A DNA stretch of 35,217 nucleotides from an uncultured Erysipelotrichaceae bacterium (lineage in GTDB: Bacteria; Bacillota_I; Bacilli_A; Erysipelotrichales; Erysipelotrichaceae), in the NCBI GenBank assembly GCA_944327135.1, contig CALVGQ010000101.1, positions 1 through 35,217 on the forward strand. The letters are read 5' to 3'. The notes beneath the pieces are model-generated. The model was given only the letters and a program-made list of their open reading frames with translations. It was not told where the DNA came from and did no database searches. Positions within the stretch are counted from its first letter, which is position 1. Each line of letters starts with the position of its first letter. Shown here one piece after another: positions 551 to 34,124 of this stretch. The translations under genes and the position numbers were made by a program.

Positions 551-583
551 AATATAAAAAAGGCTCTTGATTGAGCCTCTTTG
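551..583 (-). terminator. Rho-independent terminator after nagA
   Basis: Read on the minus strand, AGGCTC pairs with GAGCCT around a six-base loop (561-578), and the downstream arm runs into a T-rich tract (551-561). It lies directly after the nagA stop at 585 and separates nagA from the deaminase gene. Confidence 0.8.
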
Positions 584-584
584 C

Positions 585-1778
585 TTATTCCATCTTATTT
601 TCACGAATAAACTGTTGGTTAAAAGGAGTTTCTTCCTGATCACGATTGAAAACCAAACGTCCCTGACTGTAAGTATGGCGCGCCTGATAATCCTCTGTAA
701 TAACAACCAGATCGGCATCTTTGCCCACTTCTATGCTTCCTTTATGTTCAAAGCCATATTTTCTGCTTGGCACAAGACTGCTCATTTTGACCACTTCTTC
801 CAGTGGAACTTGCAGTTTTTCTACCAGATTTTGAATGCCATATAAAACAGGTTTGCTGCTTCCAGAAAGCCGTCCCGTCTCACTCAGCACAAAACCTTCC
901 GGTGTTACAGTGATGGTTTTTCGGTCATTGCCAGCATTTTTAGCTTCACCACGATATTTTCCCTCAGGAGCACCCAGATAGCTTCCATTATCGGAAACCA
1001 TCATAATTTTATCATGATCTTTCATTCGAAGAATCAATTCTACCATTGGCAAGCAGACATGCAAGCCATCACAGATCAATTCACAAGTAACCTCATCCCG
1101 TAAAATCGATGCTCCAGCCGTACCAACATCCCGATGATGCAATCCAGTCATTACATTCATCAAGTGCGTCGCTACCGTGATCCCATGATCGATTCCACGA
1201 TTGGCTTCTTCATAATTGGCATTGGTATGATAACTTGCCACGGTGATTCCTTCCTTAACAAAATAATCAATCGCTTCCAAAGCATGATCCACCTCTGGAG
1301 CTATATCCACCAGTTTTAAGTAACCGTGACCATCCTTTACCATCTTCTTGGCTGTTTCCATGTTGACTTTTGGGTATCCTAAATTGATTCCTTTCTCACC
1401 AACTCGGCTTCCCCATGGACCTTCTGAATGAATTCCAAGCACCTGTGCCCCTTCAATTTTTTCCGTAGCTAATTTAGCCGTTAGTTCAAATTGATCCAGA
1501 TTTTGGATCGTTGGAAAGATAGAAGTCACGCCGAAGGCAGCCTCTCCTTTTAACGCCTGCTTAAACTCCTCTTCGTTACACGCATCAAACCGCCAGCCAC
1601 AGGCCCCATGATTGTGTGTATCAAAAATTCCTGGAATGATTCTTTGATGACCATAATCGATATCCGCCTGCAGCCCTGCTTCTTTAGGAAGAATCCGGGC
1701 AATCTTTCCATCAACGATCTCGATAAAACAGGCTTGGCACCCTTCACTGGTGTAGACGCGATCAGAATACAGTATCAT
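585..1778 (-). CDS. nagA: N-acetylglucosamine-6-phosphate deacetylase
   Basis: This 397-residue amidohydrolase is the usual length for NagA, which converts GlcNAc-6-P to glucosamine-6-P plus acetate in the cytoplasm. Visible motifs are DTHNHG (about 53-58, metal site), GIHSEGP with Glu119, ASYHTNANY with His184, ATHLMN with His205, DGLH with His240, and VSDNGSYLG with the probable catalytic Asp263. The positions follow the NagA pattern, but wording such as EGPWGS and SDNGS differs from common NagA (LEGPF, TDA). A relative acting on a related amino sugar phosphate, such as N-acetylgalactosamine-6-P, is therefore possible. The start at 1776-1778 has an AGGAGG site. It lies downstream of the PTS/ChbG operon and its regulator and is the obvious next enzyme for the incoming sugar. 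It has its own promoter and a terminator; no nagB is in the window. Confidence 0.88.
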   Translation of the reverse strand: MILYSDRVYTSEGCQACFIEIVDGKIARILPKEAGLQADIDYGHQRIIPGIFDTHNHGACGWRFDACNEEEFKQALKGEAAFGVTSIFPTIQNLDQFELTAKLATEKIEGAQVLGIHSEGPWGSRVGEKGINLGYPKVNMETAKKMVKDGHGYLKLVDIAPEVDHALEAIDYFVKEGITVASYHTNANYEEANRGIDHGITVATHLMNVMTGLHHRDVGTAGASILRDEVTCELICDGLHVCLPMVELILRMKDHDKIMMVSDNGSYLGAPEGKYRGEAKNAGNDRKTITVTPEGFVLSETGRLSGSSKPVLYGIQNLVEKLQVPLEEVVKMSSLVPSRKYGFEHKGSIEVGKDADLVVITEDYQARHTYSQGRLVFNRDQEETPFNQQFIRENKME

Positions 1779-1901
1779 GACAGTTCCTCCTTTGTCTTAT
1801 TTCCCGTGTCTTTGCTTTATTTTCAGCTGAAAAGATCACGATAGGAAATCCCTCTCTTGTTATGCAGCCGCGTTTTCAATTTCGATGAAACCTGAACATC
1901 T

Positions 1902-1960
1902 TAGACAATCATCCTGTCTGTAATCGATCGAATGGACCATGGCGATCTGCCTAGACAATC
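1902..1960 (-). repeat. Direct repeat in the nagA leader (GATTGTCTA, twice)
   Basis: The 313-base gap 1779-2091 holds no gene. On the minus strand GATTGTCTA occurs at 1952-1960 and again at 1902-1910, exactly 50 bases apart and both downstream of the predicted nagA start point. They could be operator half-sites or part of a leader RNA structure. I recognise no known riboswitch here. Confidence 0.35.
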
Positions 1961-2005
1961 CACCTTTTCACTTTTCTTTTTTGCTTGACAGGATTTTCCT
2001 CTTTC

Positions 2006-2034
2006 ATTATAGCTGGATTTAGAACGGGTGTTCA
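2006..2034 (-). promoter_or_regulatory. Probable nagA promoter
   Basis: On the minus strand there is a perfect TATAAT at 2006-2011 and TGAACA at 2029-2034, with a 17-base spacer. This predicts an untranslated leader of about 220 bases before nagA. No clear terminator lies between the regulator gene (ending at 2092) and this promoter, so read-through into nagA is also possible. Confidence 0.55.
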
Positions 2035-2091
2035 CATTTTCAAACTCTGGAAATATTCTTTTGATTTTCTATTTTTATTCAATTAAATATT

Positions 2092-4014
2092 TTAGATATT
2101 GATTGATAAAGTGATGAATATCCATCTCGAAAAAATCTTTTTTTCTTGATCGCCTCTGCATAACATCCTTAAGATTTCAGTAAGCAATTTCACTGAATAA
2201 TGATGACGATTAAATGCCACAAAAACATAGCAATTAACTTTTCCTTCTTCTGTCATCAAATTGAACTGACATGATCCGCACACAAAGACCATTTGATATC
2301 CATGCAAAAAATCTCCATCATAATTGCATAGTATCAATTGCATTTTATTTGTGGTTTGAAAATAAATCTTTTTATTCTCTGCAGTAAAATTGCATTTCTG
2401 CTCTAGACTTTCTACAAAATCCTCAATTTTAGAAATTTTGATACAATCATTTTTAATTTTTAAGATTCCTTCCGTGTTCATCGTTATTTTTTTCAAGATT
2501 GATTCCTGAATTTCTTTGGCATGCTCTAAAACTGCATCAATTCGATCAATCAAAATCGTATTCTCATTGACTGTACTTCGATCGCCAATAATTAATGTTT
2601 TCTGCTGATGGCTTAGATAAGAAGAGGTATCTATGATATTTTCAAAAGATTCGATGTATTTTTCGTTCAATCGATCTTTTAACATATCCATCATAATTAG
2701 ATTTTTTTCATTCTCTTCATGAGAAAAGAAAGCAATTCGAATCTTATTAAATTCAATTCTCTGCTGATAAATTTTTTTTATCACCACATAGCTCAGCTCA
2801 TTTAAATTTCTTCCTCGGACATGTAAATTGAAATACCGTTTGATTTCAACACGCAAGTTGCTCATAATATCACTTACCAAGGGGTTATTTAAATATTTGA
2901 ACTGATTGGTATAAGAAAGAAAATTTTTAAAGGAAAGAATGTGAAAATTGTCTTTGATAATAAGTTTTTTGCAAAACAAAAAGACATATTCAAAATCACA
3001 ATGATCTTCTAAAAGATTGATTCCCCAGAATCGAATCAGATACTGATGGATGATCTCCACTAATTTTCCCGCTTTTTCATTCAAAAATGAAAATTCCTGG
3101 ATCTTCATAGGATGATCATCAAGTAAAAGCAGCATAAGCGCTAAAGTCATAATTTCATTTTGATTTACTGAACTTTCTCTTTCTTTAAAAGGAATAAATT
3201 CATCATAAATTTCTTCAGCAATCTGAAATAAGAGATGATCTTCAAAAAATAATGCCGGTGCATATATCTTTGTCATGATCTTATCCACAGGATGCCCCTG
3301 CAGCAATCGCTCTTTTTGAATCAATAAATATTTCACGAAGAATTGAATGTTGCTGATAGGCATTGAAAGATGATGCCGCTCAAACAAGCTTGCGATTTTT
3401 CGGCAGATCTGATTTTCCAGTTCAAGATCCATCCACTGATTGATCGTCGGATTAAATTTTTCTATGCTTAGAGGAATTTTAATAAGTTCTCTTTCCGAAA
3501 TAAACAGTAAACTTAAAAGACAAGCTCTTAAATTGAACTCATTTCCTTCTGCAATCAATCCATAATAAGGGACAGTTCGAATTTTAACTTCATAACTAGA
3601 AATATAATCCTTTACTTTATTCAAATCTTTTTTGATGCCGCTTCGCGAATATCCAAACAAATCACATATCTGCTCAATCGTTAATCTGGAATGATTCAAT
3701 AGAATTAGTTGTCCGACGACTCCGATTAAACTAATATTTTCATCCTCACCTGCTTTATTTCGATGATAAAATGAAACGCAGCGTTCGATCTTTAGATTAA
3801 AAAGCTGTGGATCGATAATAGAATAACTGATACTTTCATCCTCAAGCTCTATTTTTATTCCATAAAATGGAGCCAGCTCCGCAATTTTATTCATATCGAT
3901 ACGATATTTATAATAATTCAGTTTAAAAAAATGACAAAAATCTTTTACTGCTACATGAGTATTCATCATGATGTAAAAGATTTCTAAATAATTTTTTTTA
4001 CTATAATTATCCAT
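2092..4014 (-). CDS. PRD/Mga-type PTS-associated transcription regulator
   Basis: This 640-residue protein is built like the BglG/MtlR/LicR class of regulators controlled by PTS phosphorylation. An N-terminal winged-helix-like part (about 1-70) is followed by a second helix-turn-helix around residues 105-150 (LTIEQICDLFGYSRSGIKKD), which ends in the typical YYGLIAEGNEFNLR turn before PRD domains. Two PRD-like helical blocks follow (about 180-290 and 300-410), then a C-terminal part (about 420-640) where an EIIB-like fold would be expected; no EIIB-type Cys loop is evident. The conserved PRD histidines are not clearly visible in their usual context. There is no AAA+ domain, so it is not a sigma-54 activator of the LevR type. 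It is coded 58 bases behind the PTS IIA gene and probably controls this PTS. The gene looks more AT-rich than its neighbours. The ribosome site GAGGGG supports the start. Confidence 0.7.
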   Translation of the reverse strand: MDNYSKKNYLEIFYIMMNTHVAVKDFCHFFKLNYYKYRIDMNKIAELAPFYGIKIELEDESISYSIIDPQLFNLKIERCVSFYHRNKAGEDENISLIGVVGQLILLNHSRLTIEQICDLFGYSRSGIKKDLNKVKDYISSYEVKIRTVPYYGLIAEGNEFNLRACLLSLLFISERELIKIPLSIEKFNPTINQWMDLELENQICRKIASLFERHHLSMPISNIQFFVKYLLIQKERLLQGHPVDKIMTKIYAPALFFEDHLLFQIAEEIYDEFIPFKERESSVNQNEIMTLALMLLLLDDHPMKIQEFSFLNEKAGKLVEIIHQYLIRFWGINLLEDHCDFEYVFLFCKKLIIKDNFHILSFKNFLSYTNQFKYLNNPLVSDIMSNLRVEIKRYFNLHVRGRNLNELSYVVIKKIYQQRIEFNKIRIAFFSHEENEKNLIMMDMLKDRLNEKYIESFENIIDTSSYLSHQQKTLIIGDRSTVNENTILIDRIDAVLEHAKEIQESILKKITMNTEGILKIKNDCIKISKIEDFVESLEQKCNFTAENKKIYFQTTNKMQLILCNYDGDFLHGYQMVFVCGSCQFNLMTEEGKVNCYVFVAFNRHHYSVKLLTEILRMLCRGDQEKKIFSRWIFITLSINI

Positions 4015-4072
4015 GTTCCCCTCATTGATTACCAGAGAAATTAAACTTCAGACTTTTAAAACAGCCCACGGC

Positions 4073-4492
4073 TTAAAGCAGTGAAAGGTCAAGTTCTTCG
4101 TTCCCATTTTCAAAAGATTGAAGGGCCAATTTTACATCTTGCACTGCCTTTCTGCCGCTTTGCAACAGTTCATCATCATTTTTTCTTGAAGTTAAGACCT
4201 GAAGAAGCATCGGAAGATTCATTCCTGTAATCAATTCAATTTTCTCATTCAAACAATGAATGGCCTGATTGCATGGAGTTCCAAACATGATATCAGCGAG
4301 AATAATCACCCCATCTCCGGAATCAATCTGCCGAAGAGCCTGCTGAATAACCATTCCAAAAGACTCTGGATGATCTTCAGGCTTTAATCCACAGGATGCA
4401 AATTGAGGGATATTTTCACCAAGAAACATTGTTGCCGATTGAGCCATTCCTTGAGCCATTGGGCCATGACTAATTAATAAAACTCCTTTCAT
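4073..4492 (-). CDS. PTS mannose-family EIIA component
   Basis: This 139-residue soluble protein is the expected size for a free-standing EIIA of the mannose/fructose/sorbose family (as in AgaF or LevD). It carries phosphate from HPr to EIIB. The N-terminus KGVLLISHGPMAQGM places the phospho-accepting histidine at residue 9, and ADIMFGTPCNQA matches the family's second conserved loop, which usually reads DLFGGSP. It is separated from the IIB, IIC and IID genes by the two ChbG genes, an unusual order. A perfect hairpin lies in front of it. The partner of the complex is the membrane pair IIC/IID with IIB. Confidence 0.88.
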   Translation of the reverse strand: MKGVLLISHGPMAQGMAQSATMFLGENIPQFASCGLKPEDHPESFGMVIQQALRQIDSGDGVIILADIMFGTPCNQAIHCLNEKIELITGMNLPMLLQVLTSRKNDDELLQSGRKAVQDVKLALQSFENGNEELDLSLL

Positions 4493-4520
4493 TTTTTCAT
4501 CCTTTCTAAATTAAAATGAA

Positions 4521-4552
4521 CAGTACACCGGAAAATTGATTCCGGTGTACTG
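4521..4552 (-). other. 13-bp perfect RNA hairpin between the second ChbG gene and IIA
   Basis: The arm CAGTACACCGGAA (4521-4533) pairs perfectly with TTCCGGTGTACTG (4540-4552) around a six-base loop. On the transcribed strand it is followed by a mixed sequence (TTCATTTTAA), not a proper U-run, so it is a weak terminator at most. It may be a processing or stability element that lowers or protects part of the operon mRNA. It lies 28 bases ahead of the IIA start, just upstream of its ribosome site. Confidence 0.65.
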
Positions 4553-4570
4553 CTGCTAGGATCCAGAGGA

Positions 4571-5395
4571 CTATTGAATTTTCATTTCTTTGAAAAACTG
4601 TTCTGCATTGATTAGCTCGATGTTATTTTTTTCGATCCACTTTTTCACTCTGGAATCACACAGCGCTGAGCATTCAATTCCTCGTATCACATGAAACGTG
4701 GACAAATCCATCAGATCCTTGTCAAAAAAGCCACAATGCGTGCTTAAAAGAGAATAGTCGTGCTTCAAAAGATTTCCTCTGTCTTCAAGGATATAGCCGA
4801 CAACATCTGTATTGGCCTGCATTTCTACAGTAAATCCCGCTTTTGTTTTGGAATAATTTTGATACCAACGCTGCGGATCATGATGAAGTCTGGTTTTCCA
4901 GTCCTGATTAATTCCATATTTTTCTGCTACTTCATTACGAGCTTTTGTAATATAGGGTGTGGTAATTGAATGTCCCCCGATATAAAGCGGCTTTGATCCC
5001 ATCATTTCAATAAATCGTTTTACTTGATTCTCTGTTTCAAGCAAAACTTCTTCATACACCAAGCCCATATTGGGATCATCACTCTTTTCCAGGTCCAAAA
5101 GATTTTTGACCCCATATTGATTCATCCTTTCCTTCGTAGTGATCAACCGACCTTCTTGATTGACCAAAGAAGGAACAAGCTTAGGATCTGAAACCGGTTT
5201 ACCAAATACCAAATTGATTTCCTGCCCCACCGTCACATGAGAAAATTTTTTGATTTCCGCAACCGCTCTTTCTGAGCATGCATTGTTCGTCATCAAACCG
5301 ACCGTGTTTAAAATGCCCTCTCGAATGGCATGAAGACAGCCGTCTGTAATGCAGTCGGACATGCCATAATCGGCACTATTTACTATCAATTTCAT
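4571..5395 (-). CDS. ChbG/YdjC-family carbohydrate deacetylase, copy 2
   Basis: This 274-residue protein belongs to the ChbG/YdjC (hopanoid/chitooligosaccharide deacetylase) family, which removes an N-acetyl group from amino-sugar oligosaccharides with a divalent metal. Family landmarks seen are the N-terminal NSADYGMSD (Asp9, metal site), the GILNTVGLMTN helix, GGHSITTP (His142) and STHCGFFDKDLM (His220), followed by the VIRGIECSAL block. The usual GxHxN histidine is replaced: the sequence is VGQEINLVFGKPVSDP, with Glu59 in that position. The start at 5393-5395 has AAGGAGG. It is a paralogue of the neighbouring gene at 5532-6320, with the same arrangement. In E. coli ChbG acts on PTS-imported phosphorylated chitobiose, so an analogous job on the substrate of this PTS is the natural inference. 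Confidence 0.82.
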   Translation of the reverse strand: MKLIVNSADYGMSDCITDGCLHAIREGILNTVGLMTNNACSERAVAEIKKFSHVTVGQEINLVFGKPVSDPKLVPSLVNQEGRLITTKERMNQYGVKNLLDLEKSDDPNMGLVYEEVLLETENQVKRFIEMMGSKPLYIGGHSITTPYITKARNEVAEKYGINQDWKTRLHHDPQRWYQNYSKTKAGFTVEMQANTDVVGYILEDRGNLLKHDYSLLSTHCGFFDKDLMDLSTFHVIRGIECSALCDSRVKKWIEKNNIELINAEQFFKEMKIQ

Positions 5396-5441
5396 TCAAT
5401 CATCCTCCTTATTGACTTATCGTTGCAAAGCATTTAAAACA

Positions 5442-5499
5442 AAATGGAAGAATTATACAACAAATCTTATTATTAAGAAGAATCCAAAATCTTCCATTT
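5442..5499 (-). repeat. 10-bp inverted repeat between the two ChbG genes
   Basis: AAATGGAAGA (5442-5451) is complementary to TCTTCCATTT (5490-5499), with 38 bases between. On the minus strand the second arm is followed by TTGTTTT. The loop holds TATAAT (minus strand, 5452-5457), which could be an internal promoter -10 but has no good -35. This is the only structure I see in the 136-base gap. Confidence 0.4.
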
Positions 5500-5531
5500 C
5501 TTTAAGAAACATCCAAACTGTTATTTTTAGA

Positions 5532-6320
5532 CTATACTAAATCCCTGAAAGAAATCAGCTCTACATGATTCTCTTTTAGCCAATCCATGATTCTTTTTGA
5601 AGTGTACATTTGATGATCTTTAGCACGAATGATGGTGTAGGTCGAATACTTCATCAGATCTGTATCTACAAAACCGCAATGTCCTCCAATCAAAACATAG
5701 GGTGCATCCTGATACTTTTTCAGCTGTTCAAGCGTATATTCCTCCACATTGGCCTGAAGCTGAACCTCTATTGTAAAGGGCTTCACATTCAAGCTCGGTA
5801 AGCGCTGGACGTCATATTTTTCTAATAAGTCCTGAGCAAACGGAATTTCGTACCTTGCTGCCGCTTTACGAATCGCCTTGCCATAATTCAAAGCATGTGT
5901 GGAAATGGAATGACCGGTTACATATTCCGGTTTTTTTCCTACTAATTCCATATATTTTTCAATTTGTGCACAAGCTTCAATATAACATTCTTCTAATGGC
6001 CACAGCGCTTCATTTTCAGAAAACCGCTGAAAACGATCGTCCTTGTATTTTACTGTAGATCGAATAAATTCTTTGGTCTGCGGATCTACCAAACTAGGGA
6101 TTTTTTTAGGGTCGGAAACACAAGGTCCACTCACAACATTAATATCGATGCCAAAGCAAACATGAGGACAGTCTTGAATGAATTCCACTGCTTTTTTAGC
6201 AGAAGGCATATTAGAGAATAATCCTGTAGAGGTGATAATGCCATTTTTCATGGCATCATACACACCCGCTGTCACTGCCTTTGTAAATCCATAATCATCA
6301 GATTTTACCAGTAATTTCAT
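5532..6320 (-). CDS. ChbG/YdjC-family carbohydrate deacetylase, copy 1
   Basis: This 262-residue ChbG/YdjC-type deacetylase is paralogous to the next gene in the operon. It has the classic double Asp at the N-terminus (KSDDYGFTK, Asp8-Asp9), then GIITSTGLFSNMP, VTGHSISTHAL (His137) and GGHCGFVDTDLM (His214), and ends in the family's SFRDL tail. As in the other copy, the histidine of the GxHxN motif is not present: the sequence is GIDINVVSGPCVSDP, with Asp59. Both copies share the PxVSDPKxxPSLV stretch, which marks them as one subfamily. The start at 6318-6320 follows a GGAGG site. The gene lies between the PTS membrane components and copy 2, so it is very likely co-expressed and acts on the imported sugar. 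The exact substrate cannot be read from the sequence. Confidence 0.83.
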   Translation of the reverse strand: MKLLVKSDDYGFTKAVTAGVYDAMKNGIITSTGLFSNMPSAKKAVEFIQDCPHVCFGIDINVVSGPCVSDPKKIPSLVDPQTKEFIRSTVKYKDDRFQRFSENEALWPLEECYIEACAQIEKYMELVGKKPEYVTGHSISTHALNYGKAIRKAAARYEIPFAQDLLEKYDVQRLPSLNVKPFTIEVQLQANVEEYTLEQLKKYQDAPYVLIGGHCGFVDTDLMKYSTYTIIRAKDHQMYTSKRIMDWLKENHVELISFRDLV

Positions 6321-6369
6321 CGAATCCCTCCTTATTTGAATTCAGCTTTCTAAAAATCCTCAGATAAAA

Positions 6370-7200
6370 CTATACAATGCCAAAGAACGATAGAATAATG
6401 CACACGATAATGATGATAAAAATAATTTTGATTGGTGAAGTTCCCTTTTTTATAAACTGAATGCACACTGTCCAAAGCGCCAAAGACAACAATCCCGGCA
6501 TGATCGAATCAAGGATCGCTTGAATATCTACCGTTGCTCCAAACACATTGGGAACCCAAACCAGTTTTACATTCACATTTGTGGCCACAAGAGCACCAAC
6601 CATCATTGCCCCCATTGCGCTTGCCACATCTGTAATCAAGCGGACTGCACCGCTTTCAAATGCTTTTGTGATAAAGCTCGTTCCGGAATTATATCCTATA
6701 TAGAGCAAAACATAAGAAGAAAGCATCCGCCCGCCAGCAAAGGTAACCGCAAAGAAAATCGGTCCTAGAATATTGCCTCCAGCAGCCAAGGAAATGGCCA
6801 CCCCTGCTAAGATCACTCGGTAGCAGTTAAAATAGATGGAATCCCCGATCCCTGCTGTTGGCCCCAGCAAAGAGGCTTTAATACTGGAAATCGCCTCTGC
6901 ACTCACGGTTCCTTTTTCCGCTCTTTCTTTCTCCATTACCAGTACGATCCCGGTTATCAAGGAAGTCATGGTCATATTTGTATTGTAGAACTCATCACAA
7001 TGCCTTACAAATGTTTTTTCTCTTTCTTCCTGATTATCTTTAAACCATACGTCCAGACCAGGTTTAATGCTTAATGCAAAATTTCGAGCAAACTGCACGA
7101 CAGCATTGCTGGACCAAGAAACTAAAAGACAATATTTAAACGATTTCTTTAAAATACTTTTTTCCTCTTGGGTCAAGTCTTTTTTCAAAGCATTACTCAT
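6370..7200 (-). CDS. PTS mannose-family EIID component
   Basis: This is the membrane-associated IID subunit of a mannose-family PTS permease, 276 residues from the chosen start. The typical N-terminal block is seen (LKKSFKYCLLVSWSSNAVV), then a run matching EIID with ASLLGPTAGIGDSIYF, the most conserved IID signature, followed by hydrophobic segments and a short C-terminal membrane helix (about 258-276). The longest frame begins at 7218, but the ATG at 7198-7200 has AAGGAG nine bases before it and gives the ATGAGTAA overlap with the IIC stop, so I prefer it. It forms the sugar channel together with IIC. The sequence alone does not identify the sugar; the amino-sugar genes around it suggest an N-acetylated hexosamine or its oligomer. 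Confidence 0.9.
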   Translation of the reverse strand: MSNALKKDLTQEEKSILKKSFKYCLLVSWSSNAVVQFARNFALSIKPGLDVWFKDNQEEREKTFVRHCDEFYNTNMTMTSLITGIVLVMEKERAEKGTVSAEAISSIKASLLGPTAGIGDSIYFNCYRVILAGVAISLAAGGNILGPIFFAVTFAGGRMLSSYVLLYIGYNSGTSFITKAFESGAVRLITDVASAMGAMMVGALVATNVNVKLVWVPNVFGATVDIQAILDSIMPGLLSLALWTVCIQFIKKGTSPIKIIFIIIIVCIILSFFGIV

Positions 7201-7984
7201 AGAAGTCATCTCCTTCACTAAGCTGAGCTGACGCTAGCTGATTTTTCATATCCGCCATTTCTTTGCTTCGTTTAAACTGAAGCAGAACAATTGCCAATGC
7301 TAAAAGTGCAATCACGATAATATCCAGACCAACAAATTTGGAAAGTATAAAACCGATGATGACATAAACCGGCGTGTACGTATCCCAGATCGATCTGGTC
7401 GTTAAGCACAAGCCAACTACGACCAGCATGCCGCTGGCGACATTGAATCCATTTAGAATCCAAGCTGGAATTTGATTAATTGCCTCAGTAATCAGTTCTG
7501 CTCCCAGCCACAGGCTAAAAAAGATAATCAATGTATTGACCAAGGTTTTTAATACCAATCCATCCACCAGCCACAATAACCTCCAAGCCTTGAAATTTCT
7601 TTCTTCTTCCAGTCGCAAGAACACTGGATGATATAATGCTTTTAAAAATTTCTCAACCGGCTTTAAACTATTCACGATTGCGCCGATTGTCACCGATAAG
7701 GCCAAACTTGTCTCCTGAGGAAGTCCTGTTAGAATAACTAAGGTCACCGGTACTACGGTTGAAACACGATAGTCTGAAGCAGCAACTCCTCCAATTGCAC
7801 TAATTCCCATATAAATGGCTTCCAATTGTGCTCCCATGATTATTCCCGTTTGGAGATCTCCACACACCAAACCGGTCAATGTTCCCAAAATAATCGGACG
7901 AGTAAAGCACTGCGTTCCTGTTAATGAATCAAAAATTTGTGCGACATGATAAGTCAAAGCAGCAATCAGTGCATTCAAAAACAC
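7193..7984 (-). CDS. PTS mannose-family EIIC component
   Basis: This 263-residue, strongly hydrophobic IIC permease subunit belongs to the sorbose/N-acetylgalactosamine/mannose PTS group. The family signature region is GTLTGLVCGDLQTGIIMGAQLEAIYMG split over about residues 34-60, followed by several membrane segments and a charged C-terminal tail (from about 238). It overlaps the IID start by eight bases, typical of stoichiometric coupling. A 69-base spacer separates it from IIB, and its start has a GGAGG-like site. It transports the sugar while IIB phosphorylates it. Confidence 0.9.
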   Translation of the reverse strand: MFLNALIAALTYHVAQIFDSLTGTQCFTRPIILGTLTGLVCGDLQTGIIMGAQLEAIYMGISAIGGVAASDYRVSTVVPVTLVILTGLPQETSLALSVTIGAIVNSLKPVEKFLKALYHPVFLRLEEERNFKAWRLLWLVDGLVLKTLVNTLIIFFSLWLGAELITEAINQIPAWILNGFNVASGMLVVVGLCLTTRSIWDTYTPVYVIIGFILSKFVGLDIIVIALLALAIVLLQFKRSKEMADMKNQLASAQLSEGDDFYE

Positions 7985-8053
7985 GTTGAATTCCTCCCTT
8001 TTAAAATCTTTTCTGAAAATAAGGATGATTTAAGCGCTTAAATTCCATCATTT

Positions 8054-8551
8054 TTAAAATTTCTGTCTAGCCCTTTTCAAGGCTTCTCTAAAATCAAGTG
8101 GAGTATCATCAGGCAGCATTTTGTTATAAATTTTTGGAGTAATTTCCGCTAATTTTTCAAATTGTTCAAACTGTTTTCGGTTTGTACGGCAAAATCCTGT
8201 CACCTGAATTTGACCTTCTGTAATTTTCTGCAAATAATTGCAGACATTGACCTCCTGAATTTTTAATGCTTCCACCAGCCGATAAGCGTCTTCCGGTGAA
8301 TCCGCAATCAGCAGAACCTTCATCGCCGCTGCTCGCGGATCGCTTAGAAGCTGAATCGCCCCTTCTACTGTACAAATTCTGACCTTTTTGCCAGTACTGC
8401 TTCCGGCCATGATCAGCATCTGCTTGGTCAATGCATCCTTGGCTGATTTATCGTTGGCAACAACAATCGCATTGATATCCAAGGCCCGTGACCATTGTGT
8501 TACGATCTGTTCGTGAATCAATCTGTCGTCAATTCTTAATTGAACGATCAT
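8054..8551 (-). CDS. PTS mannose/fructose/sorbose-family EIIB component
   Basis: This 165-residue soluble EIIB is the first gene of the PTS operon. The phosphorylation-site motif RIDDRLIHEQIVTQW places the active histidine at residue 13. Most relatives have Gly directly after that histidine (LIHGQV); here it is Glu. The ending LDFREALKRAR is also typical of the family. It receives phosphate from EIIA His9 and passes it to the sugar in IIC/IID. A cre-like palindrome lies 24 bases upstream, so catabolite repression through CcpA is expected. Confidence 0.9.
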   Translation of the reverse strand: MIVQLRIDDRLIHEQIVTQWSRALDINAIVVANDKSAKDALTKQMLIMAGSSTGKKVRICTVEGAIQLLSDPRAAAMKVLLIADSPEDAYRLVEALKIQEVNVCNYLQKITEGQIQVTGFCRTNRKQFEQFEKLAEITPKIYNKMLPDDTPLDFREALKRARQKF

Positions 8552-8574: not shown

Positions 8575-8590
8575 TTGAAAACGTTTTCTA
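8575..8590. promoter_or_regulatory. CcpA cre-like operator in front of the PTS operon
   Basis: TTGAAAACGTTTTCTA contains the perfect 12-bp palindrome GAAAACGTTTTC (8577-8588) and fits the catabolite-responsive element pattern TGnAAnCGnTnnCA well except for the last base. It overlaps the predicted transcription start of the PTS operon, a usual repression position. Confidence 0.65.
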
Positions 8591-8684: not shown

Positions 8685-8722
8685 AAAAAAGACAGACAGT
8701 CACTTCACTAACTGTCTGTCTT
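8685..8722 (-). terminator. Rho-independent terminator of the MBL-fold hydrolase gene
   Basis: The arm AAGACAGACAGT (8689-8700) pairs perfectly with ACTGTCTGTCTT (8711-8722). Read on the minus strand the hairpin is followed by a run of six T (8685-8690). It isolates the PTS operon from the hydrolase gene upstream. The stretch 8723-8800 holds nothing else I can identify. Confidence 0.85.
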
Positions 8723-16166: not shown

Positions 16167-16196
16167 AAAAGATCGAAGCTCAGCTTCGATCTTTTT
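16165..16196. terminator. Bidirectional terminator between the DUF2383-like and SIS genes
   Basis: GATCGAAGC (16171-16179) pairs with GCTTCGATC (16183-16191), with A6 on the left and T5 on the right, so it works in both directions. The three-base loop is the stop codon of the SIS gene, and the stem encodes its last residues. Confidence 0.88.
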
Positions 16197-16923
16197 CCAC
16201 CTCAGCAATATATTGTTCATGCAGCCGGCGATTGATCTCCTCTGCCCCGTCGATATTCGCGCTTCTGAAAATCGGTGGTTCTTCTCCTTCTTCCACCATT
16301 TTCTGAGCAATGGTCACTGTTAAGGCCTGAACCATCGCGATCCCGGTAAAATCGCTCGTTCCAGCAATTGGAACCGGCCATGATGGCAAAGTAAATTCGG
16401 CATCACCATATCCCGCTTGATTATCTAGCACCAGATCAGCTACTTCATACAATTTTTTTCCCTCTTTTTGCCGGGAGGATACCCTTTTGGAATGGCGTAA
16501 AGAAGTCAGCGCAATCACATAAGCTCCTTTTTTCTTTGCTTCGATTGCCATTTCCACCGGAACGCTGTTACGGCCACTATTGGAAATGATCAAAAAGACA
16601 TCGCGTTCCGTGATCGGATAAAGATCAAGCAGCGCTTTCGCATATCCCCCTAACCTTTCCAAATTCGTACTTTTGTTGACTCGTTCATGCAGCATCAGTT
16701 CTGGAGGAAGAATAGCTTTTACAAAAGCCAGCCCTCCGGCCCGTGTATACAGTTCTTCTGCAATCATATGCGAATGACCCGAACCAAAGGCATAAAAATT
16801 TCCGCCTTGACGATGAGAATTTAGAATCATCGAGGCCGCCTGTTCGATCTGTTCACATTGGGTGTCCAAGCAAGCCTGCAGCTTGTCGGCTAAAAAGGCA
16901 AAATAATCTTGTGTGCTCTGCAT
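16180..16923 (-). CDS. SIS-domain sugar-phosphate-binding protein (UPF0309-like)
   Basis: This 247-residue single-SIS-domain protein contains FYAFGSGHSHMIAEELYTRAGG and the phosphosugar-binding loop FLIISNSGRNSVPVEMAIEAK. The SNSGxN core and GSGHSH are typical of the uncharacterised UPF0309 sugar-isomerase-like group, related to GmhA and GlmS isomerase domains. The protein probably isomerises or binds a sugar phosphate, perhaps a hexosamine phosphate; the exact reaction is unknown. It is a single-gene unit: an extended -10 promoter lies upstream and its stop codon is the loop of the terminator. The start has a GGGAGG site. A link with the amino-sugar genes 8 kb away is possible but not shown. 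Confidence 0.78.
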   Translation of the reverse strand: MQSTQDYFAFLADKLQACLDTQCEQIEQAASMILNSHRQGGNFYAFGSGHSHMIAEELYTRAGGLAFVKAILPPELMLHERVNKSTNLERLGGYAKALLDLYPITERDVFLIISNSGRNSVPVEMAIEAKKKGAYVIALTSLRHSKRVSSRQKEGKKLYEVADLVLDNQAGYGDAEFTLPSWPVPIAGTSDFTGIAMVQALTVTIAQKMVEEGEEPPIFRSANIDGAEEINRRLHEQYIAEVEKDRS

Positions 16924-32193: not shown

Positions 32194-32958
32194 ATGTGGA
32201 ATCAATTCAATGTCAAAGATTACGCCGGCATGATTGCCGAAACCATTCATATCCCTGGACATCAGGGGAAAACCATTCGTGCTTATTATTCCAAGCCGCT
32301 TCAAAAGGAAAACTGTCCAGGCTTGGTCCTGATTCCGCACATGCCAGGCTGGGATGAATTCTGTCGGGAAGCAGCCAGGCGGTTTACAGAACACGGATAT
32401 CAGGTTCTTTGTCCAAACATTTACGAGGATTACGGAGACGGTACACCTACGGAAGTGTCTAGCCGGGTTCGAGAAGCCGGCGGTGTCCATGATGACAGTG
32501 TCATGGAAGACTGTGCCGGTGCCTTGAATTTTCTGCGCAATCAAACCCAATCCAACGGGAAAGTAGGTGTCATTGGAATGTGCTCTGGCGGACGCCATAC
32601 TTTCCTAGCAGCCTGTACCGTGGATGGCTTTGATGCAGCAGTGGACTGCTGGGGCGGCGGAGTCGCTCCAGAGCCGGAAGAAGCCACCGAAGCCAATCCG
32701 GTCGCCCCGATTACTTACGCTGAAAAACTGAGCTGCCCATTGATCGGGATCTTTGGAAACGAAGATCATCACCCTACTCCAGAAGAAGTCGATCGATTAG
32801 AAACAGCATTAAAGAAATACAATAAAGAATTCGAATTTTATCGATATGACGGAGCCGGACATGGCATCTGGTATTATGATAAACCGATGTTTCGACAGCA
32901 GCAGGCCATGGATTCCTTCAATAAAGTATTGGCCTTTTTGGATCGCTATCTCAAATGA
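32194..32958 (+). CDS. Dienelactone hydrolase-family protein
   Basis: This 254-residue alpha/beta hydrolase is of the dienelactone hydrolase family. The catalytic triad is visible: nucleophile Cys130 in GMCSGG, Asp191 in FGNEDHHP and His223 in GAGHGIWY. The Cys nucleophile and overall length fit carboxymethylenebutenolidase-like enzymes, most of which act on unknown esters or lactones outside aromatic degradation. No aromatic catabolism genes are nearby, so I do not assign the textbook substrate. There is a strong GGAGGG site. Its last four bases (ATGA) overlap the start of the radical-SAM gene, so the two are translationally coupled. Confidence 0.85.
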   Translation: MWNQFNVKDYAGMIAETIHIPGHQGKTIRAYYSKPLQKENCPGLVLIPHMPGWDEFCREAARRFTEHGYQVLCPNIYEDYGDGTPTEVSSRVREAGGVHDDSVMEDCAGALNFLRNQTQSNGKVGVIGMCSGGRHTFLAACTVDGFDAAVDCWGGGVAPEPEEATEANPVAPITYAEKLSCPLIGIFGNEDHHPTPEEVDRLETALKKYNKEFEFYRYDGAGHGIWYYDKPMFRQQQAMDSFNKVLAFLDRYLK

Positions 32959-34124
32959 GCTCGCTTCCCTTTGTCGTGATGGCTAAGCCCGTCGGCTCTC
33001 GCTGCAACCTGCGGTGCCGCTATTGTTATTATCTGGATAAAGGAAAGTTTTCCTCCCATCAAAAGCAATCCAGAATGAGCTTTGACCTTTTGGAAAAACT
33101 GATTCGCCAGACGATTCAGGCCAGTTCTGGACCTATCGTCTCTTTTACATGGCATGGCGGAGAGCCTACTTTAGCCGGACTGGATTTCTATCAAAAAGCC
33201 ATCGAATTAGAAAAAAAATACCTTCCTAAAAACTGGCAGGTCTGGAACAATCTTCAGACCAACGGGATCCTGTTGAATGATCATTGGGTTCATTTTTTAA
33301 AAGAGAACCGGTTTGACGTCGGCTTAAGCCTTGATGGAAACCAGTGGGTCCATGATGCCAATCGCCTTGATCTTCGTCAAAGTGGTTCTTATCAACGCGT
33401 TCTGGCAGCGGCTAAGCGGCTTAAAGCGGCTGGAATCGAACCTGATTTGCTTTGCACGGTCAATGCAGCGACCATTAAACAGCCTTTAGAAGTTTATCAG
33501 GCTCTGCGGGAACTGGATACCGGATGGATCCAATTTATTCCGATCGTCATCCGATTAAAGAATGGTCAGATGGCTCCTGAATCGATCGATGCCAGTCAAT
33601 ATGGAACCTTTCTTTGTACCGTATTTGATGAATGGGTCCACCATGACCTCGGTCGTCTGGATGTTCAGCTTTTTGCTGAAACTGCCCGAGTCTTAGCCCA
33701 TGGAAAAGCAAGTCTTTGCTGGATGAGCGAAACCTGCGGACGAGTCTTAATTGTTGAGGAGGATGGCGCCGTTTATTCCTGTGACCATTTTGTGGATGAA
33801 AATCATCGGATCGGCAATCTTTTCCAAAACTCACTGGCTGATTTGGCCAACAGTGCAGCACAGCTTGCGTTTGGCAATCAAAAAAAACAAGCCTTGAGCG
33901 CCGAGTGTCGAGCCTGTCCTTATCTGGCCTATTGTCATGGCGGATGCTTGAAAGACCGTTTTGCGCAGTCCTCAACAAAAGAAAAAAACCATTATTATCT
34001 TTGCGGCGGATTAAAACAGTTTTTTGGGCATGCTCTTCCGATCCTCAAACAAATCATGCAGCTCAGTCAGGCTGGCAAAACTCCTCAAGCAATCATGGAA
34101 TGCTTAAATACCCAAAAAAGATGA
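32955..34124 (+). CDS. Radical SAM/SPASM protein, anaerobic sulfatase-maturase type
   Basis: This 389-residue protein starts with the radical-SAM iron-sulfur motif CNLRCRYC (Cys17, Cys21, Cys24) followed by YYLDKG, and continues with FTWHGGEPTLAG and LQTNGILL, which match anSME enzymes closely. The C-terminal SPASM region has the expected cysteines in ETCGRVLIVEEDGAVYSCDHF (split over 20 residues), CRACPYLAYCHGGC and YLCGG, for two auxiliary clusters. anSME enzymes oxidise a Cys or Ser in the sulfatase active site to formylglycine without oxygen. No sulfatase gene is in the window, so its partner is elsewhere or the substrate is different. It is coupled to the dienelactone hydrolase-like gene and ends in a terminator shared with the methyltransferase. 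Confidence 0.87.
   Translation: MSSLPFVVMAKPVGSRCNLRCRYCYYLDKGKFSSHQKQSRMSFDLLEKLIRQTIQASSGPIVSFTWHGGEPTLAGLDFYQKAIELEKKYLPKNWQVWNNLQTNGILLNDHWVHFLKENRFDVGLSLDGNQWVHDANRLDLRQSGSYQRVLAAAKRLKAAGIEPDLLCTVNAATIKQPLEVYQALRELDTGWIQFIPIVIRLKNGQMAPESIDASQYGTFLCTVFDEWVHHDLGRLDVQLFAETARVLAHGKASLCWMSETCGRVLIVEEDGAVYSCDHFVDENHRIGNLFQNSLADLANSAAQLAFGNQKKQALSAECRACPYLAYCHGGCLKDRFAQSSTKEKNHYYLCGGLKQFFGHALPILKQIMQLSQAGKTPQAIMECLNTQKR

Follow-up and report, generated by a model that had tools for sequence, protein, structure and literature searches.

An eight-gene cluster in a 35,217-nucleotide stretch of DNA (the window, i.e., the whole stretch that was analysed) from an Erysipelotrichaceae gut bacterium, whose genome is 96% complete, encodes a mannose-class phosphotransferase system (PTS), two proteins of the YdjC family (ChbG1 and ChbG2), a regulator, and a NagA-type deacetylase. 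We tentatively propose, with somewhat less than even confidence, that this cluster is an operon for the catabolism of an acylated amino-sugar compound, which would be imported by the PTS, converted by ChbG1, perhaps with ChbG2 as a partner, and passed to NagA. All eight genes lie on the minus strand, from position 8551 to 585 of the window, in the order IIB-IIC-IID-ChbG1-ChbG2-IIA-regulator-nagA, and the order and coordinates given in an earlier note on this DNA are borne out by the open reading frames (ORFs) and their Pfam matches:

8054..8551, minus strand: PTS IIB of the mannose/sorbose family (PF03830, PTSIIB_sorb, 5e-34), with the phosphorylation His in DDRLIHEQ
7193..7984, minus strand: PTS IIC of the mannose/sorbose family (PF03609, EII-Sor, 1.4e-49)
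6370..7200, minus strand: PTS IID of the mannose family (PF03613, EIID-AGA, 6.6e-71), its start most likely the ATG at 7200 (after AAGGAG) rather than the GTG at 7218 of the longest ORF
5532..6320, minus strand: ChbG1, YdjC family, Asp61 clade (PF04794, YdjC, 1e-33)
4571..5395, minus strand: ChbG2, a YdjC-family paralogue (PF04794, YdjC, 1.3e-29)
4073..4492, minus strand: PTS IIA of the mannose family (PF03610, EIIA-man, 9.3e-23), with the phosphorylation His in LISHG
2092..4014, minus strand: regulator of 640 amino acids with an Mga-type helix-turn-helix (4e-5)
585..1778, minus strand: nagA, encoding a NagA-type N-acetyl-hexosamine-6-phosphate deacetylase of a divergent clade (Amidohydro_1, 6.8e-16)

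ChbG1 and ChbG2, which are 35% identical to each other, both belong to the YdjC superfamily PF04794 (117.8 and 104.3 bits, respectively, vs. a gathering score of 29.7). However, neither reaches the NCBIfam cut-off of 227 bits for chitin disaccharide deacetylase (PRK02134), with ChbG1 scoring 95.1 bits and ChbG2 73.3 bits. The AlphaFold2 models of ChbG1 (predicted local distance difference test, pLDDT, 96.7) and ChbG2 (pLDDT 93.3) share 2i5i as the best match in the PDB (template-modelling score, TM, 0.79 and 0.73, respectively), and the top solved matches of the models are YdjC/ChbG structures (2i5i, 7vi8, 8jqe). In the crystal structure of Klebsiella ChbG (kpChbG), the zinc ligands are D11, H61, and H125, while D10 and H206 are the proposed general base and acid, respectively (PMC9402603). 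In alignment with ChbG, ChbG1 keeps D10, D11, H125, and H206, and the metal ligand His61 is replaced by Asp; these five positions (10, 11, 61, 125, and 206) correspond to D8, D9, D59, H137, and H214 in the numbering of ChbG1 itself. ChbG2 keeps D11, H125, and H206, with His61 replaced by Glu and the general base Asp10 by Ala. The zinc ligand set D11/H61/H125 is intact in neither copy, and only ChbG1 possesses both the base and the acid. The description of the pair as two ChbG deacetylases in the earlier note therefore needs correction, on account of the missed PRK02134 cut-off, the altered position 61 in both copies, and the missing base of ChbG2; judged from the sequences, "deacetylase" is a family name only. 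The further suggestion of a deacetylation of the phosphorylated product by both proteins is unproven, and doubtful for ChbG2, given these residue changes and the inactivity of the kpChbG mutants H61A and H206A (H61D is not reported in that study; PMC9402603).

A residue survey covered 96 YdjC proteins, taken with search patterns that favoured Asp61 from 79 loci (retrieved by a search with a ChbG1-type profile) and three more sources. The D-D-D-H-H pattern at the five positions above was found in 82 of the 96, a count which shows that the Asp61 type is common and not what its true share is. Because Asp61 is conserved jointly with H125 and H206 in these 82 proteins, the clade suggests a metal site that is retained in altered form, rather than one in decay. 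When the active-site columns are left out of the tree, the base-less proteins group with those carrying Asp61 or Glu61 (Shimodaira–Hasegawa-like approximate likelihood-ratio test, SH-aLRT, 90, not starred), with the His61 proteins apart. The base-less proteins form a group of four (98, starred), i.e., ChbG2 of the window, L040 (genome G023), L112, and L128, and at all four loci an Asp61 partner and mannose-PTS genes are nearby. The three other members are 44–48% identical to ChbG2, and the group shows open frames and many invariant positions. The type is rare, in that samples of 395 genomes of the class and 392 of the phylum yielded no other strong match, and a scan of the genome collection with ChbG2 as the sole query found no relative. 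Since kpChbG is a dimer, the disruption of which costs over half of the activity (PMC9402603), a ChbG1-ChbG2 dimer is plausible by analogy.

The genes around YdjC also differ between the two types. Mannose-PTS genes are near 46 of 85 Asp61 YdjC genes vs. 3 of 22 His61 YdjC genes (Fisher p 0.0007), and NagA is near 36 of 85 vs. 2 of 22 (p 0.005), both p values being optimistic (too small), as the compared sequences are related. The His61 proteins of the same family are more often near a glucose- or cellobiose-type PTS. Within the 79 fetched loci, IIB, IIC, and IID are all present in 39, of which 27 contain NagA, 9 more than one YdjC, and 6 a member of glycoside hydrolase family 1 (GH1). YdjC is directly preceded by IID 16 times and by a conserved membrane protein (c9) 17 times, and directly followed by NagA in 25 cases. 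The conserved coupling is found in Erysipelotrichaceae, metagenome-assembled genomes of Lachnospiraceae, and Chloroflexi; Erysipelotrichaceae genomes, as well as named genomes such as Holdemania massiliensis and filiformis, Dielma fastidiosa, Anaerorhabdus furcosa, Pelolinea submarina, and others, repeatedly show variants of the order regulator-IIA-IIB-IIC-IID-(c9)-YdjC-NagA. As mannose-PTS, YdjC, and NagA genes recur together across many genomes, the neighbourhood is not a matter of chance. These counts uphold the idea of a mannose-family PTS, YdjC, and NagA route unlike that of E. coli chb, with GH1 usually absent. The earlier note had also advised looking for the same arrangement, with its co-occurring glycosidases, in other genomes; the combination of mannose PTS and YdjC proved conserved, but the exact tandem ChbG pair is rare. 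In the literature collection that was searched, no paper on YdjC coupled to a mannose PTS was found.

The c9 protein, of about 300 amino acids, lies between the PTS genes and YdjC (L149:7111-8001, L154:7102-7995, L173:7091-8020, and 16 others) and has no significant Pfam or PDB match; judged by eye only, its motifs recall an M28-peptidase-like domain. Its position is occupied in the window by the second YdjC. A locus with the order ABC transporter-NagA-YdjC (L111) was considered as a hint of an amino-acid conjugate and dropped, as its next genes are ribosomal and the case is single.

The NagA of the window falls narrowly under the TIGR00221 cut-off (220.5 to 221 vs. 225.65 bits). Its metal and catalytic residues H55, H57, E119, H184, H205, and D263 (HxH, Glu, two His, and Asp) are in place and invariant in A5, and its PDB matches to NagA structures range from 1e-38 to 7e-23. 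Seven NagA-type proteins in the genome match the greater part of the NagA model, and the mannose-class IIC family has 13 matches. Weak NagA-profile matches on two contigs (G000:C27 and C97), in paired adjacent ORFs of about 385 amino acids, are probably other amidohydrolases. The clade of the window NagA includes two others of the same genome, both beside a mannose-class PTS. A cluster on contig C107, IIB-IIC-IID-NanE-NagA, whose NagA belongs to this clade, fits the uptake, epimerisation, and deacetylation of N-acetylmannosamine. It shares PTS class, NagA clade, and layout with the window cluster, whereas the NanE epimerase replaces the two YdjC genes and the regulator is of the RpiR type. Since NanE fills the slot of the window YdjC genes, we infer by analogy that the YdjC step may likewise convert the phosphosugar that enters into a compound on which NagA can act.

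The Erysipelotrichaceae live in the gut and have ties to amino sugars of the host. In the route that we favour, the four mannose-class PTS subunits would import the compound and place a phosphate on C6; the PTS looks competent from its sequence, with a complete set of mannose/fructose/sorbose subunits (IIA, IIB, IIC, and IID matching PF03610, PF03830, PF03609, and PF03613) and the phosphorylation histidines of IIA and IIB in place. ChbG1, as a YdjC-fold hydrolase that depends on metal and has its metal site changed from Asp-His-His to Asp-Asp-His, would then remove one acyl group from the phosphosugar, or otherwise convert it into a compound acceptable to NagA. ChbG2 would most likely assist ChbG1 without catalysing a reaction itself, in a structural or substrate-binding role and possibly as part of a heterodimer. 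NagA would take off the N-acetyl group, after which NagB, whose gene lies elsewhere in the genome, would pass glucosamine-6-phosphate to glycolysis, with expression presumably under the regulator and a site resembling the catabolite-responsive element (cre). The substrate had been left open, which we endorse; a monosaccharide derivative or small conjugate appears more likely than a disaccharide.

Several observations weigh against this route. Some Asp61 YdjC genes adjoin a cellobiose- or glucose-type PTS with GH1, a sulfatase, or an ABC transporter, so a mannose PTS is not a general requirement of the clade, and nor is a phosphorylated substrate. The altered ligand could mean altered or lost activity, as kpChbG H61A is inactive (PMC9402603), and our searches turned up no assay of a protein from the Asp61 clade. 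In addition, the nagB match carries a stop, and the glycosidase search of the genome covered GH1, GH4, and GH170 only.

Asp61 YdjC genes lie near sulfatases at L127:4015-5601, L179:5049-6590, and L187:898-2406, and the L187 gene additionally has an ABC transporter and a two-component system in its vicinity; from such neighbourhoods, the clade would seem to be active also outside PTS loci. The genome of the window has a third Asp61 YdjC, a single one (G000:C16, L005:6828-7649), with a transposase and genes of an ABC transporter nearby, and no PTS genes. A YdjC fragment at a contig end (G000:C104:1-246, L004), with dnaK- and dnaJ-like genes next to it, is possibly a fourth copy.

An alternative that we regard as unlikely is a chitobiose-like route on the model of E. 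coli chb: an N-acetylated disaccharide would enter through the PTS, the resulting disaccharide phosphate would be deacetylated by the ChbG proteins, and a glycosidase from another part of the genome would cleave it. The chb operon of E. coli and Klebsiella (ChbBCARFG) likewise combines a PTS, a transcription regulator, and a YdjC/ChbG protein, and the ChbG fold and three of the five active-site residues are common to both window copies. Mannose-class PTSs are able to carry disaccharides, and a cellobiose-type PTS with GH1 adjoins some Asp61 YdjC genes, as noted above. However, the window PTS is mannose-class whereas that of chb is lactose-class, and the window lacks the GH4 enzyme ChbF, has two YdjC copies with an altered metal site, one of them without the base, and carries its own nagA. 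Moreover, GH1 is missing from 33 of the 39 mannose-PTS loci, and neither GH1 nor GH4 was found in the whole genome (96% complete), which makes a ChbF-type disaccharide route unlikely. GH170 was rejected as the missing glycosidase, since the genome holds a single fragment that contains a stop. In the chb and nagA cluster of Lacticaseibacillus paracasei, a PTS-borne amino sugar is also finished by NagA, but that cluster has a cellobiose-type PTS and a GH170 hydrolase, and no ChbG (PMC12791066). Where the earlier note suggested an N-acetylated sugar or disaccharide, an amino sugar is probably right, and a disaccharide processed by a ChbF-like enzyme is not expected.

We likewise doubt that the cluster is a plain N-acetylhexosamine system, in which the PTS and NagA would handle N-acetylglucosamine or N-acetylgalactosamine (GalNAc) and the YdjC genes would be accessory, outside the main path. 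Several PTS subunits are nearest to the NCBI models of Aga (GalNAc/galactosamine) components, the Erysipelotrichaceae are known GalNAc users (PMC8063399), and contig C7 of the same genome carries a PTS and NagA cluster without NanE or YdjC. The E. coli Aga operon also pairs a mannose-class PTS with a NagA/AgaA deacetylase. However, the subunits miss every NCBIfam equivalog cut-off of the Aga models by wide margins, and the window has YdjC proteins in place of AgaS and the tagatose genes. An AgaS-like protein on contig C97, beside a canonical NagA and IIA, indicates that a GalNAc route probably lies at another locus. In addition, many loci retain YdjC between the PTS genes and NagA, a placement that an accessory gene would not require.

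It is less likely still that the Asp61 clade performs another reaction on the imported compound, e.g., O-deacylation or C–N cleavage of a glycosylamine, rather than deacetylation of an N-acetyl-glucosaminide. The clade-wide alteration of the metal ligand, the variable partners (GH1, sulfatase, esterase, and NagA), and the N-deacetylation already supplied by NagA would all accord with such a reaction, but ChbG1 retains the general base, the acid, and two of the three metal ligands of the deacetylase, and there is no direct sign of a different chemistry. That ChbG2 is a decaying duplicate in a functionless tandem is improbable despite its lost base and the rarity of its type, because decay would not preserve the open frames, the invariant positions, and the Asp61-partner and mannose-PTS context of the four well-supported base-less loci.

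A bolder version of the favoured route, which we put forward with considerable doubt, is that the Asp61 YdjC proteins constitute a functionally distinct enzyme class (Asp-Asp-His) for which the substrate would be an as yet undescribed compound that gut bacteria take up by a PTS, and that the window ChbG1 works only in complex with the base-less ChbG2. Public records label such proteins "ChbG/HpnK family deacetylase"; YdjC proteins of conserved operons, with a metal site that differs clade-wide, are probably over-annotated in many genomes. The operon may mark a substrate of host or diet origin, and, in the base-less copy beside ChbG1, it presents a compact and testable example of an enzyme paired with a pseudoenzyme.

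The following signals accompany the genes:

4519..4554, minus strand: terminator-like hairpin of 15 pairs between ChbG2 and IIA (−28.6 kcal/mol, z −6.9)
8689..8722, minus strand: terminator-like hairpin that closes a metallo-beta-lactamase (MBL)-fold gene upstream of IIB
557..582, minus strand: terminator-like hairpin 3′ of nagA
2006..2034, minus strand: promoter-like site ahead of nagA, TGAACA-17-TATAAT (10/12), a weak mark, as sites of this kind are no more numerous in the region than expected by chance
8575..8590, minus strand: cre-like palindrome TAGAAAACGTTTTCAA just upstream of IIB, with one mismatch to the consensus used, also a weak mark, as such matches arise by chance in near these numbers

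The gene order of the operon described in the earlier note stands, but a single transcript for all eight genes is unproven, since the strong hairpin lies between ChbG2 and IIA and nagA follows the regulator after a gap of 313 bp with its own promoter-like site. The protein named there as a PRD regulator shows the Mga match, but the PRD domain (PF00874) was not detected in it at E 0.05, although it is detected in 10 of 24 relatives.

Elsewhere in the window, an anaerobic sulfatase maturase (32955-34124, plus strand; TIGR03942, 430.6 bits) hints at the use of sulfated glycans, and no sulfatase was identified among the scanned window proteins. A SIS-domain sugar isomerase protein (16183-16923, minus strand; NF002805), about 8 kb from IIB, has a possible relation to amino-sugar use.

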